The notes under the pieces were generated by a model. The model was given only the letters and a program-made list of their open reading frames with translations, had not been told where the DNA came from and did not search any database. The translations under genes were made by a program, and so were the position numbers. Below, one piece after another: positions 50,366 through 55,960 of a stretch of DNA of 64,000 nt (its first letter is position 1; the number at the start of each line of letters is the position of its first letter). Source of the DNA: an uncultured Halobacteriovorax sp. (GTDB lineage Bacteria > Bdellovibrionota > Bacteriovoracia > Bacteriovoracales > Bacteriovoracaceae); contig CAJXVS010000010.1 in the NCBI GenBank assembly GCA_913061265.1, positions 1-64,000 on the forward strand, read 5' to 3'.

Positions 50366-51943
50366 CTATTTTAATTCAACAGTCCTAAAGATATCTCCTC
50401 CAAGAGGATCAATCTTATAACCTTTAACATTCTTACTCATGGCGCGAAAAATAATTGAATGAGCGATAGGAGCCCAAGGAGCTTCTTTGTTAAAGATTTT
50501 TTGAGCTCGCTGGTAAAGAGAGTTTCTACTTTTCTTAACAGTAGTTAGCTTGGCCTTTAAGATGAGGTCATTAAATTTCTTATTACACCATCTTGCTACG
50601 TTTGATCCTGAAGTAACTCCAGTACAACCTAGAAGAACATTGAGAAAGTTATCCGGGTCTCCGTTATCACCAGTCCAACCTAGTTGAATAAGTGAGTGAG
50701 AGCCTTCACGGGCCTTCTTAAGGTAGGTAGGCCAATCATAAGTGATAAGCTTTGCTTTGATTCCAACTTTCGCTAGATCCGCTTGCATCATCTCACCCAT
50801 TTTCTTTCCATTAGGATTGTAAGGACGAGTTACAGGAAGAGTCCAAATCTCAGTTTCAAAACCTTTGGCAAGACCAGCTTTCTTTAAAAGTCTTTTGGCC
50901 TTGGCAGGGTTGTAGTCGTAATCCTTAATCTTTTTATTGTATGACCAAATCGTAGGAGGAAGTGGGTTCTTCGCTACGATGGCGTTACCTAGGTAGATAG
51001 CATCAATATAAGATTGCTTATTAAGAGCGTGATTAATGGCGCGCCTAACTTCGATCTTATCAAAAGGAGCTTTTTGCGTATTCATGGCAAGGTAGCCAAC
51101 ATTAAGACCAGCTCCCTGCATAACAACTAGGTCTTTATTATTTTTCATGGCACCAATATCAGCAGGACTTGGCTCAATGATCAAATGACATTCATTGGTT
51201 TTAAGTTTTTGATACCTAACTGATGGATCTGGCGTGATAGAGAAAACAAGCTTCTCTACTTTTGCTGGTGTTCCCCAATAAGACATATTCTTAGTAAAAC
51301 GAATGATAGTATCTTTTTGGTATTTCTTAAAAACAAAGGGACCGGTTCCCACTGGGTAATTATCTATTCTTTCTTTCTCATTCTTCTTCTCTAATTGATC
51401 AGCATATTCTTGTGAGAGAATAGACATAAAGCTCATGGCCATATTAGCAATAAAAGGAGCCTCAGGAGAGTTAAGAGTGATCTTTACTTTGTAGTCGCCA
51501 ACTTTCTCGATACTTGTGATCAAGTTGTTCATGTCCATTCCTGTAAAGTACTCATAGCTTCCGCCGCTTACTTTATTATAAGAATGATCTTTATCCCACT
51601 GACGCTTAAAAGAAAAAAGAACATCATCAGCGTTGAGTTCTCTCGTTGGAGTAAAGTATTTTGTTGTATGAAACTTAACACCTTTTCTTAATGTAAAAGT
51701 ATAAGTCTTTCTGTCTTTAGAGACCTTCCAGCTCTTAGCTAGCTTTGGAATAATCTCAGTCGTTCCGTATTTAAAATCAACAAGCCTCTCATAGATTGTA
51801 TGAGCACTGGCATTGTTTGAGGTTCCATCAGTTGTGATCTGTGGGTTGAAGGCCGTAGGGGATCCTTCTGAACAATAGACAAAAGATTTTGCCATTGAAG
51901 GCGAGCTAATGATGAGCGCCGCGAATAAAGTAATAAGTTTCAT
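50366..51943 (-). CDS. dppA: Peptide ABC transporter substrate-binding protein (DppA-like)
   Basis: A 525-residue periplasmic binding protein of SBP family 5 with a signal peptide (MKLITLFAALIISSPSMA). Typical segments are FVYCSEGSPTAFNPQ, AKSWKVSKDRKTYTFTLRKG, NYPVGTGPFVFKKY and RRAINHALNKQSYIDAIY. It should bind dipeptides and deliver them to DppBC. In most bacteria dppA is the first gene of the operon; here it lies 5.6 kb upstream of dppB with four other genes between. Start ATG has AAGGAGT upstream. The closest match by motif style is DppA, though haem or oligopeptide binding is possible. Confidence 0.92.
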   Translation of the reverse strand: MKLITLFAALIISSPSMAKSFVYCSEGSPTAFNPQITTDGTSNNASAHTIYERLVDFKYGTTEIIPKLAKSWKVSKDRKTYTFTLRKGVKFHTTKYFTPTRELNADDVLFSFKRQWDKDHSYNKVSGGSYEYFTGMDMNNLITSIEKVGDYKVKITLNSPEAPFIANMAMSFMSILSQEYADQLEKKNEKERIDNYPVGTGPFVFKKYQKDTIIRFTKNMSYWGTPAKVEKLVFSITPDPSVRYQKLKTNECHLIIEPSPADIGAMKNNKDLVVMQGAGLNVGYLAMNTQKAPFDKIEVRRAINHALNKQSYIDAIYLGNAIVAKNPLPPTIWSYNKKIKDYDYNPAKAKRLLKKAGLAKGFETEIWTLPVTRPYNPNGKKMGEMMQADLAKVGIKAKLITYDWPTYLKKAREGSHSLIQLGWTGDNGDPDNFLNVLLGCTGVTSGSNVARWCNKKFNDLILKAKLTTVKKSRNSLYQRAQKIFNKEAPWAPIAHSIIFRAMSKNVKGYKIDPLGGDIFRTVELK

Positions 51944-52083
51944 GGGTTTACTCCTTAAAGGTTTAAGGGCGTATTCTATAAAACTGCTCTGTACCTTTTG
52001 AGGGGAAGCGCGTTATCTTACATTGGCTATGTGGTTGAAATTATTGATAAATATCGAAAGGCTTAAATTAAACCTAATTAGTC

Positions 52084-52830
52084 TTAAGAAATCGTTGTGA
52101 TTAAAGAATGACTAACCATTCTTGAGAACAAATCAGAGACTTCTTCCCCCGGAGCATCTGGATATTTTTCAAGGGCGTCGCCTAAACTTAACTGTTCACG
52201 CAAGTTTAAAAAAAGAGAAGCTTGAAAGTTAGTAAGGAACATTACTTGAACAGTATCAGTTGATTTATACATTAAGCAATTCTCTGGGACCCACTCAATT
52301 TGAGAAAAGGACTCTTCAGAGTTATCCCCTCGTTTTTCCCAAATCTTATAAAGAGGGTACTTTGATTGAAAGAGAAAATGTTTCTTCGTAAAGATCATCT
52401 TTAAAGAAGTGGGATCCTCTAAATTCGCAAATACTTTAGGGTCGACTGCCTCTTCAACTTCAGAGTTAAACAACCTTCTAAATTCAATCTCCATAGAGGC
52501 AAGTTCACTTAGATAAGCAATCTCATGATCCTTTAAAAAAGAGGGAAGCTCGTTTCCATATTCTCCGAGATCATAAAGCCTTGAAGGATTTTCTTCTATG
52601 TACTTAAGAGTCATCTCAAAGAACTCTTTATCACCAAGAATAGTCCATAAAGATTCGAAGTTATCGCCTAAAACTGAAGAGAGTCTAGCTGTATAATCAT
52701 TGCGGTAAGTATTAAAACATCCCTCTAGATCTAAGCTTCCACCAGGGAGCATGGTCTTCTCAATGGATTTAGGTAGTTTATTTTTTAAGATGCCCTTTAA
52801 AAAATCCTCTTGTAGTTCTTTAAGCTTCAC
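52084..52830 (-). CDS. DUF2063 partner of the MNIO enzyme (BufC/HvfC-like)
   Basis: A 248-residue protein. The GTG at 52830 is chosen because AGG lies 6 nt upstream; a further GTG at 52842 lacks a ribosome-binding site. The N-terminal part is the DUF2063 domain (KLKELQEDFLKGIL, then LEGCFNTYRNDYTARLSSVL and DLGEYGNELPSFL). The C-terminal half is a second, less conserved domain. Such proteins always accompany DUF692 enzymes, where they are thought to present the precursor peptide to the enzyme. The start overlaps the DUF692 gene by 11 nt. It is the last gene in this operon. Confidence 0.88.
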   Translation of the reverse strand: MKLKELQEDFLKGILKNKLPKSIEKTMLPGGSLDLEGCFNTYRNDYTARLSSVLGDNFESLWTILGDKEFFEMTLKYIEENPSRLYDLGEYGNELPSFLKDHEIAYLSELASMEIEFRRLFNSEVEEAVDPKVFANLEDPTSLKMIFTKKHFLFQSKYPLYKIWEKRGDNSEESFSQIEWVPENCLMYKSTDTVQVMFLTNFQASLFLNLREQLSLGDALEKYPDAPGEEVSDLFSRMVSHSLITTIS

Positions 52831-53632
52831 CGTGAACCTCACTGATGATGGCGCGCGCTTTTAGCGCCTCTCCTTCAAGAACATCAAAGTCCGGAATATC
52901 ATCATCCCATTCAATAAGAGTAGGGGCGTGAGGCGCTTTTTCTGTGGCCTTCTTAAAGAGTTCCCAAACTTCAGGGAAAACCGGTTTGCTATGAGTATCA
53001 AAAAGAAAATCTCCCATATCAGTAAAGCCAGCGAGGTGAATCTCGGCAATCGATTCAGGTTCTATAGCATCCATATAGGTATGAGGATCAAACTTTTGGT
53101 TTTGAGAGTTAACGTAGATATTATTCACATCAAAGAGGAGTTTACAGCCAGATCTTTTAGATAAAAGGGCCAGAAATTCCCATTCTCTCATGGTGGATTC
53201 TTTATAATCAAAATAAGCGGAGAGGTTCTCTAGAACAAGCTCTCTTCCCATAAAGTCCTGAACTTCATTAACCCTGCCGACTAAAAAATCTAAAGTCTCT
53301 TCGTTATAAGGAAAGGGAAGCAGGTTATGTAGATTACTCTCAGGGGCTCCTGTCCAGCAAAGATGATCACTGACGATCATAGGTTCAAAGGGAGTCACTA
53401 ACTCTTTGACCTTTTTCATATAGCTATAATTAAGACCCGAGTGATGGGCAATATTGAGGCTGACCCCGTGAAAGCTAAGCGGGTAGTCAGATCTGATATG
53501 CTCTAGGATCTTAAGAGGGCGACCCGCTGAGTTCATATGATTTTCAGTCAAGGCCTCAAAGAAATCAACCTTAGTCTCTAAAGATTCTTCAAGACGAGAG
53601 TAGTGCTCAGTTCGAAGCCCTACTCCCACCAT
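52820..53632 (-). CDS. DUF692 multinuclear iron enzyme (BufB/HvfB-like)
   Basis: A 270-residue TIM barrel of the MNIO (DUF692) family. The family start VGVGLRTEHYSRL directly follows the ATG at 53632, so I prefer it to an in-frame TTG at 53677 that would overlap the precursor gene. Metal-binding motifs in order: FHGVSLNIA (His), SDHLCWTG (Asp/His), ENLSAYF (Glu), LLFDVNNIYVNS (Asp), IAEIHLAGF (His), DTHSKPV (Asp-x-His) and LIEWDDDIP (Glu). MNIO enzymes use two or three irons to oxidise cysteines of precursor peptides into oxazolone/thioamide or thiooxazole groups. The gene is flanked by its Cys-rich precursor and DUF2063 partner genes. Confidence 0.92.
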   Translation of the reverse strand: MVGVGLRTEHYSRLEESLETKVDFFEALTENHMNSAGRPLKILEHIRSDYPLSFHGVSLNIAHHSGLNYSYMKKVKELVTPFEPMIVSDHLCWTGAPESNLHNLLPFPYNEETLDFLVGRVNEVQDFMGRELVLENLSAYFDYKESTMREWEFLALLSKRSGCKLLFDVNNIYVNSQNQKFDPHTYMDAIEPESIAEIHLAGFTDMGDFLFDTHSKPVFPEVWELFKKATEKAPHAPTLIEWDDDIPDFDVLEGEALKARAIISEVHGEA

Positions 53633-53651
53633 CTTTTCTTTTAATGCTTTA

Positions 53652-53912
53652 TTAAGAATTACTTCCTTTTGAAACAAATTCTCCGCCTTTAGTTTTACAA
53701 TTTTCCTGAGTCATCTTCTTCCAACCGGCACCTTTACATTTATTATGTCCAGCGCAAGCATGAGTCTTTCCACCACAGTCGCCAGTACCTTTACAAGCAT
53801 TAACTCCATGACACTTACCTATCACTTTCGTAGATGAATTAGAAGCGCAACCAGCTCCCACTAAACAAAGCCCTGCCATCGCAGCACCAACCAACACAGA
53901 TTTACCATTCAT
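53652..53912 (-). CDS. Cys-rich bufferin-type RiPP precursor (BufA-like)
   Basis: An 86-residue protein with an N-terminal signal sequence (VLVGAAMAGLCLVGAGCAS). Its mature part has six cysteines (34, 40, 46, 53, 59, 72) in two related blocks: VNACKGTGDC and HNKCKGAGW. This CKGxG pattern, ending in a C-x-x-x-GG segment, is typical of precursors paired with DUF692 enzymes that sequester copper. Cys22 after VGAG could be lipidated, but Gly at the third position before it is atypical for a lipobox, so cleavage by signal peptidase I is equally possible. AAGGAG lies before the ATG. It heads the bufABC operon. Confidence 0.88.
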   Translation of the reverse strand: MNGKSVLVGAAMAGLCLVGAGCASNSSTKVIGKCHGVNACKGTGDCGGKTHACAGHNKCKGAGWKKMTQENCKTKGGEFVSKGSNS

Positions 53913-54021
53913 AGATCTTCTCCTTGAAGTCGAATATTTATAGGTATGTTACTTGAGGCTGGAATTTGTTACAGGCTTGAAGCGTTAAAGTTAATTTATT
54001 TTATAAGGTACTGTTTTCTCA
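53913..54021 (-). promoter_or_regulatory. Leader/promoter region of the bufferin operon
   Basis: This 109-nt stretch precedes the precursor gene. A TATAAA (minus strand, about 53943-53938) could be a -10, but no convincing -35 or extracytoplasmic-sigma motif is seen. Together with the adjacent inverted-repeat element it makes a 311-nt gap without a gene. Confidence 0.35.
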
Positions 54022-54217
54022 TAAACTGCCCTACTGCAATGGTGACATTGCATAGTTATGACTGCATACGATCAGAAGCATAGCAAATGAAGCTCTCTAC
54101 GAAGAGCATCTATCTTTTTACTGCCAGAATTAGTTTCTCTTCGTATGAAGTGATTGAATTTATTAATGCATAGAATTTTGTGGGCTTTTAACAACACCAC
54201 TAAGGTAGGGCAGTTTA
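54022..54217. repeat. 196-bp element with perfect 13-bp terminal inverted repeats and nested hairpins
   Basis: TAAACTGCCCTAC (54022-54034) is the exact reverse complement of GTAGGGCAGTTTA (54205-54217). Directly inside the left arm, TGCAATG (54035-54041), GTGA and CATTGCA (54046-54052) form a perfect 7-bp hairpin, a GNRA loop if read on the plus strand. Further in, TACGAAGAG can pair with CTCTTCGTA (9 bp), and GCTCT with AGAGC. The sequence GCATAG occurs three times. It contains no reading frame. It could be a structured RNA, a riboswitch-like leader of the bufferin operon on the minus strand, or a small MITE; no target duplication is visible. The repeats are certain, the function is not. Confidence 0.65.
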
Positions 54218-54223
54218 GTTATC

Positions 54224-55960
54224 TTACTCTTGAACTCGCTCTAAGAGGAACTGTAGGATCTTAGGCTCAGTATGGGGAAGCTCTTCAAAAAGATAACGCT
54301 CCTCTTCCTTGGTCCATGCGGCAGGTTTTGGATAGCGCATTCTAAAACCAGTTAACTCTACTATTGAAAGTGAGATGCCTTTTATACCCATTCCAAGATG
54401 ATCTCTCTTTGGAGCAAGCCACTTAAAGCCAGGAATATTTGATAACCATTTTAAAGGAGTGGTTAAGACGCCATAAAGAGTTTCAATAACAGCAGCCGTT
54501 AAGTTTATAGCAGCGGCTGTTGGTTTGTAGATAATACTTTTTAAGAGACCGTGGGTTTCTGGGTAGAGGATCATATTAGATCCTGCTAATCCGTCTTTTC
54601 CATTAGAGGCCTTGGACCAAAAGCTAGCGTTTTCCCAAAAGAGACTTTGTCCAGCCTCTAACATCTTCATCTTTCTTAAAGTTCTTTGACTTGGATAGAT
54701 GATGACTTTTTCAGCTGTCTTCTTTTTTAAAAAGCCAAAGATCCAAATAGGGTTAAAGCCAGTAGTGTCATTGATTTCATACTCGCCCCCAAGTTGATTT
54801 AATCTTTCTCTAATAGGATGGGTACAGTTATTACTTAGGAGGCTATAGTCCTCAAAGTCTTTTTGATCCAAAAAATCTTTTCCTTGTTTCTTATAATGAT
54901 TAAGTGAGACTTGAAGACCAGCGTAAACATCTTCTTCACTCATCTTAGGCCATACTTCTATAATATCTCTATTGGTGTGAAACTGAGCAAAGCCATAACC
55001 TTCAGGGGCCGTAGTCGCCGGATTGGTTCTAAGCTTCATGTAGATCTTACCTTCTTGTCTTTCAATATAGGAATCATCAACTTTATCAAGATGCTTCTTA
55101 TAGACCGATCTCATATTATCAATTTCCCCAGTAGTCATTTGGGTATACTCAAACATGATGTCCATAAGCTTATCTTCAAGGCAGTAGATATAGCGCTCGG
55201 CTACATGACCGGCCACAGAAGTTGTATAGCCAGGGGCCATATAAACAATGGCCATGCCAAGGGCCTTGATTCGTTTTCCCTTAGAGTTAATCTTGGTGGG
55301 CTTATAATCTTTCTTACAAATATTAAATCTTTTTAAGGATTGATCCGTCAGTGAAGTAGCGTCGAATTCCATCTTAGTTTTATAAAGCATGCTATCGACT
55401 TTATAGGTATACCATTCAAGCTTTCTTCTTTTTTCTTTTAATTCATCTAATTGTTCGCAGCGCTCTTTCATCTGTTTAGAAAAACGAAAGTTACGGAACC
55501 TCTTTCCTTTGTTGCCAGCCTTTCTTTTAAGATAGCAATAGTCGATGTCTTTCACTTCTTGCTTTGTATAAGAGCGCTCTAAATCATCACTACCAGGAAT
55601 CTTTAAAAGCTCGCTTTCAAGGGCGGATAAAAGCTTCTCACGGAGGCTCTTGCCTTTGGTTTTATCTCTAGTCTCGTATGAATAAATAAAGGGAAGAAGC
55701 TTTTCATCAAAGATGAGATCATCTCCTTGAAGTTCAACCAAACGCTTAGAGTCTTGAAACTTAATATTGATTAACTGATCGACTCCAAAGCGAACCCCAG
55801 GGCGGAGATCTGAATCAAGGGAGTTTAAAAATCCAGTGATACGTTTAAACTGAGGCATTGATTTTTCGCTAGAACTTAGAACCAGACCAAACTTAGTCGC
55901 TGAGAAGCACGTAGAGGTAGCGAGGCTTAAAAGAATAAGGAAGGTTAGGCGTAGTTTCAT
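54224..55960 (-). CDS. Secreted DUF4105-like (papain-like fold) protein
   Basis: A 578-residue protein with a signal peptide (MKLRLTFLILLSLATSTCFS). Two motifs, SVAGHVAERYIYCL and YSLLSNNCTHPIRERLNQL, mirror the His and Asn-Cys-Thr motifs of DUF4105, a papain-like/NlpC-P60-related domain predicted to be a peptidase or amidase. The region before them is helical and Lys-rich. After the Cys motif come hydrophobic segments (KPTAAAINLTAAVIETLYGV). Catalysis is inferred by motif only. The 3' end lies 7 nt from the inverted-repeat element and the gene is transcribed toward the bufferin operon. Confidence 0.7.
   Translation of the reverse strand: MKLRLTFLILLSLATSTCFSATKFGLVLSSSEKSMPQFKRITGFLNSLDSDLRPGVRFGVDQLINIKFQDSKRLVELQGDDLIFDEKLLPFIYSYETRDKTKGKSLREKLLSALESELLKIPGSDDLERSYTKQEVKDIDYCYLKRKAGNKGKRFRNFRFSKQMKERCEQLDELKEKRRKLEWYTYKVDSMLYKTKMEFDATSLTDQSLKRFNICKKDYKPTKINSKGKRIKALGMAIVYMAPGYTTSVAGHVAERYIYCLEDKLMDIMFEYTQMTTGEIDNMRSVYKKHLDKVDDSYIERQEGKIYMKLRTNPATTAPEGYGFAQFHTNRDIIEVWPKMSEEDVYAGLQVSLNHYKKQGKDFLDQKDFEDYSLLSNNCTHPIRERLNQLGGEYEINDTTGFNPIWIFGFLKKKTAEKVIIYPSQRTLRKMKMLEAGQSLFWENASFWSKASNGKDGLAGSNMILYPETHGLLKSIIYKPTAAAINLTAAVIETLYGVLTTPLKWLSNIPGFKWLAPKRDHLGMGIKGISLSIVELTGFRMRYPKPAAWTKEEERYLFEELPHTEPKILQFLLERVQE

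Follow-up and report, generated by a model that had tools for sequence, protein, structure and literature searches.

What kind of peptide system is encoded by three adjoining genes on the minus strand of a 64,000-nt stretch from an uncultured Halobacteriovorax sp. (GenBank GCA_913061265.1, contig CAJXVS010000010.1, positions 1–64000; hereafter the window), and is its product held in the membrane? The first-pass annotation of positions 52084–53912 had proposed a bufferin-type operon of the multinuclear non-haem iron-dependent oxidative enzyme (MNIO) class, comprising coupled genes for a cysteine-rich precursor, a DUF692 enzyme and a DUF2063 partner, and both the open reading frames (ORFs) and the family models agree with this assignment. 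The ORF listing of the window confirmed bufA (53652–53912), bufB (52820–53677) and bufC (52084–52842, ORF extent as listed), all on the minus strand. The 86-residue product of bufA (MNGKSVLVGAAMAGLCLVGAGCASNSSTKVIGKCHGVNACKGTGDCGGKTHACAGHNKCKGAGWKKMTQENCKTKGGEFVSKGSNS) matched NCBIfam NF050166 (BufA2 bufferin) with 60.9 bits against a curated cut-off of 60 (E = 1e-16), BufB matched NF050167 (bufferin maturase) with 331.2 bits against a cut-off of 310 (E = 4e-99) and Pfam PF05114 (DUF692/MbnB_TglH_ChrH; E = 1.8e-95), and residues 9–103 of BufC matched PF09836 (DUF2063; E = 1.9e-15); a sequence search of the PDB returned no relatives of BufC. Because all three products match these families, a chance origin of the ORFs is excluded. 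The listed bufB start, TTG 53677, places the beginning of bufB within the end of bufA (an alternative start is ATG 53632, MVGVGLR), and the likely bufC start, GTG 52830, yields an 11-nt overlap with the end of bufB. The bufA-bufB-bufC order is preserved in two congeners. Taken together, the three genes form a tightly coupled bufferin operon of the BufA2 class in a Halobacteriovorax-like bacterium.

The precursor contains eight cysteines, at positions 16, 22, 34, 40, 46, 53, 59 and 72, and two CKGxG blocks, C40-KGTG and C59-KGAG. The two blocks, the six cysteines of the mature region and Cys22 had been recognized on first inspection, but Cys16, located in the hydrophobic part of the signal peptide, had been missed. 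For comparison, the BufA2 model was run against 129 genomes from the bacterial family of the window organism and found BufA2 in 31 of them, and 29 distinct precursors were aligned; a scan of the collection identified two Halobacteriovorax metagenome-assembled genomes at 82–85% identity. C34, C40, C46, C53, C59 and C72 were invariant in 29/29 precursors, as were the two CKG lysines, K41 and K60. Since the cysteine and lysine of these blocks do not vary, CKGxG represents the family motif of BufA2 and no oddity. The first-pass annotation had called the CKGxG precursor unusual and had itself held that placement in a well-described bufferin family would speak against its view; the search against NF050166 puts BufA in just such a family, with CKGxG as the consensus. 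An 8-cysteine BufA2 variant, in which an inserted segment carries two extra cysteines, was seen at loci L025-L033 and L031 (for example, L026:1474-1764 and L027:1474-1767). The published bufferin survey lists BufA2 with 6 or 12 cysteines (Buf_6/12Cys; PMC12452194).

BufB keeps the residues of an MNIO iron site. Alignment with the diiron MNIO 3BWW showed that the iron-site motifs are all kept, namely HG 70, SDH 103, EN 150, DVNN 183, IH 213, DTH 227 and E.D, here EWD 256 (numbered from the TTG start), so that the DUF692 metal residues, whose loss had been named at the outset as a reason to abandon the assignment, are present. 3BWW is given as 72% identical to HvfB, which is inactivated by loss of N175, D242 or H244 (PMC13419390); read through 3BWW, the Asp and His of DTH and the Asn pair of DVNN in BufB align as the counterparts of HvfB D242, H244 and N175. 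In the BufB sequence EWDDDIP, the EWD Asp is directly followed by another Asp, at the position of Phe in Lys-Cys enzymes. Asp at this position is reported as a mark of Cys-Lys (BufA2) enzymes (PMC13097082).

These features allow us to propose how the operon works. BufC would bind the BufA precursor, and BufB, as a multinuclear iron enzyme, would act together with BufC in the cytoplasm to oxidize BufA cysteines to 5-thiooxazoles, most likely those of the Cys-Lys pairs, C40 and C59, and perhaps others. The modified peptide would then leave the cytoplasm by the Sec route; in this lineage, signal peptidase II probably cleaves it and Cys22 probably becomes lipidated, so that BufA would be held in the envelope, where it may sequester copper or similar thiophilic ions. 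We consider it likely that the locus is, as a whole, a BufA2 operon yielding a BufBC-modified, probably lipid-tethered peptide that sequesters copper or similar ions. Alternatively, the main target of the product could be another metal, such as cadmium, mercury or zinc, or the peptide could give protection from chromate, thiol or oxidative stress instead of buffering copper: in Caulobacter, chromate and cadmium induce operons of the same type via sigma-F (PMC3511200), and MerC-bufferin fusions exist (PMC12452194). Against this, no other metal gene adjoins the bufABC operon among the window ORFs compared with the NCBIfam and Pfam models, and we regard such a role as unlikely.

Whether the peptide is membrane-anchored depends on Cys22 (codon 53847–53849, minus strand), which the first-pass annotation had described as a possible but atypical lipidation site, a description that the alignment bears out. 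In BufA, the residues up to and including Cys22 read VGAGC, which is lipobox-like. In the 29 precursors, the Cys22 column is that of the cysteine in canonical lipoboxes (LSGC, VSGC and MSGC) of sister genera. A cysteine follows Gly, Ala or Ser at the end of the signal peptide in 16/29 precursors, and in the remaining 13/29 no cysteine stands there. Cys22 is retained in both congeners, and the genus of the window has Gly at the -3 position (GAGC, GAGC and GTGC). In a tree of the mature regions, most forks of which are unresolved, BufA falls in a clade of 11 (support 88/84), of which 10 have a cysteine at the lipobox position. Cys22 fits a PS51257-type lipobox pattern, with Gly as the -3 residue. 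BufA could instead be an ordinary soluble bufferin that is cut by signal peptidase I near VGA|G or GCA|S, in which case Cys22 would be lost or stay behind as a surplus thiol and no lipid anchor would be attached. The Gly at -3, unusual among the lipoprotein-like signals of this genome, is consistent with such processing, as is the occurrence of BufA2 without a lipobox cysteine in 13 of the 29 rows from the same bacterial family; yet Cys22 shares its column with the LSGC, VSGC and MSGC cysteines, nearly the whole clade has a cysteine, the site fits a PS51257-type pattern, and relatives without a lipobox have no cysteine at all in that column. We therefore favour lipidation of Cys22 as the probable outcome and consider a soluble product rather unlikely. 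Some points weigh against the anchored BufA2 bufferin proposed here. The BufA score exceeds the NF050166 cut-off only just (60.9 versus 60); the lipobox -3 residue is Gly, with no other Gly at -3 among 14 candidates with a signal peptide plus cysteine in a 444-kb sample of the genome; and AlphaFold models BufA only at low confidence (pLDDT 60), so that the prediction is uninformative on cysteine pairing and was set aside.

The first-pass annotation was not aware of the membrane-anchored bufferin as an established type, but the literature already has the idea. A 2025 survey predicts lipoprotein signal peptides for approximately 16% of Buf2 bufferins and suggests that these might sit anchored in the membrane (PMC12452194), and some bufferins and oxazolins carry signal peptidase II signals, with a triacylated MNIO-modified NedA (oxazolin; lipo-NedABC) having been made (PMC12636315). 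Since predicted lipoprotein-type bufferins and a lipidated NedA have already been reported, the locus adds a member, a Halobacteriovorax-like example, to a known kind. Lipobox and lipobox-free precursors that share the same cysteine core within one bacterial family offer a natural comparison for the effect of anchoring.

The genome (99.75% complete) encodes one true bufferin maturase and three precursors. Besides BufA2, these are two stand-alone DUF2282 (Buf1) genes, at G000:C4:152328, where the neighbouring genes are preserved in both congeners, and at C6:181216; neither adjoins a maturase. The C6 gene (L056:1339-2659, G000:C6; no maturase) is followed by an ECF (extracytoplasmic function)-type sigma gene (Sigma70_r4_2, 1.4e-8) and a gene for a probable membrane anti-sigma factor with one transmembrane segment and without a clear family match. 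A second MNIO candidate, a partial PF05114 match at G000:C4:289610 (54.6 bits; L002:1162-1935), was rejected as a maturase: it scores far below the cut-offs for maturases of ribosomally synthesized and post-translationally modified peptides, also resembles xylose-isomerase-like TIM barrels and sits in a sugar/capsule biosynthesis cluster. In the neighbouring genus g4, none of the BufA2 genes encodes a lipobox cysteine; they lie on contigs other than those of the bufBC pair, and the inspected bufBC pairs have no adjoining precursor. By count from coordinates, 14/16 lipobox-bearing precursors directly precede bufB, same-genus members not being independent; the two exceptions are a precursor located at the end of its contig and one whose genome yielded no BufB. 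A lipobox-type 8-cysteine BufA2 at L065:2612-2947 (G036:C39), in a 99% complete genome with no BufB found, is accompanied by a divergent sigma-factor-like gene. One maturase for three precursors, together with unlinked precursor and maturase genes in the neighbouring genus, makes modification in trans seem plausible. A single BufBC pair might mature two families, the adjacent lipid-anchored BufA2 and the two soluble stand-alone Buf1 (DUF2282) proteins, although we would put this specific scheme on the improbable side. Stand-alone bufferin precursors are common (PMC12452194), so what is new here is limited to the proposal that several precursors share one BufBC. If it is true, a single enzyme would yield both a tethered copper buffer and a free one, and one maturase with scattered precursors is a simple test case for bufferin maturases acting in trans.

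Upstream of bufA, a pair of GTAACA elements (53947–53972, minus strand) is conserved with two congeners in a three-genome alignment and may be an ECF-type promoter or regulator site. Their positions are -60 and -40 for the window and -47 and -27 for the congeners. GTAACA-N16-CGAA occurs upstream of bufA in three 8-cysteine relatives against 0.014 expected (at the rate of this genome) and is close to the Caulobacter sigma-F site, GTAACC-N16-CGAA, which drives two operons of bufferin type under metal stress (PMC3511200). The exact sigma-F-type box (GTAAC-N17-CGAA) is absent upstream of the window bufA and present only in the three 8-cysteine relatives. Because the window site fails to match the -10 part, control of bufA by an ECF sigma factor is only a lead. 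A promoter that bufA would have in common with both stand-alone Buf1 genes was considered and discarded, the GTAACA motif not being found upstream of the Buf1 genes. Within 51900–54400, a sigma-70 promoter search gave none (5.3 expected in shuffles) and an Rfam search gave no matches. Approximately 110 bp upstream of bufA, at 54022–54217, lies an element of 196 bp whose ends are inverted over 23 bp (TAAACTGCCCTAC...) and which the congeners lack; another copy, at G000:C6:171058-171242, has ~45–60 bp in common at each end and a different middle. The element resembles a small mobile element with TA flanks.

Compared with known systems, the operon resembles Buf2/BufA2 bufferins (NF050166; PMC12452194) in its bufABC order, six cysteines, CKG motifs, Sec-type signal and DUF2063 partner, and its putative lipoprotein-type signal resembles that of the predicted lipoprotein subset (~16% of Buf2 members; PMC12452194). 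It departs from typical Buf2/BufA2 in the Gly at lipobox -3, the second cysteine (Cys16) in the signal peptide, the score just above the cut-off and the lack of a DoxX gene beside the window operon. Like lipo-DybAH and lipo-NedABC (PMC12636315), it would produce an MNIO-modified peptide with an N-terminal acylated cysteine, acylation being predicted for BufA and demonstrated there; unlike BufA2, the precursors of those two systems are ChrH-type and oxazolin-type (EGKCG). With the captophorins (fontiphorin, oxazolin and bufferin 1; PMC13097082) it shares an MNIO with a DUF2063-type partner and the expected 5-thiooxazole chemistry, whereas the modification motif is Cys-Lys in the window BufA and Lys-Cys in the captophorins (PMC13097082).
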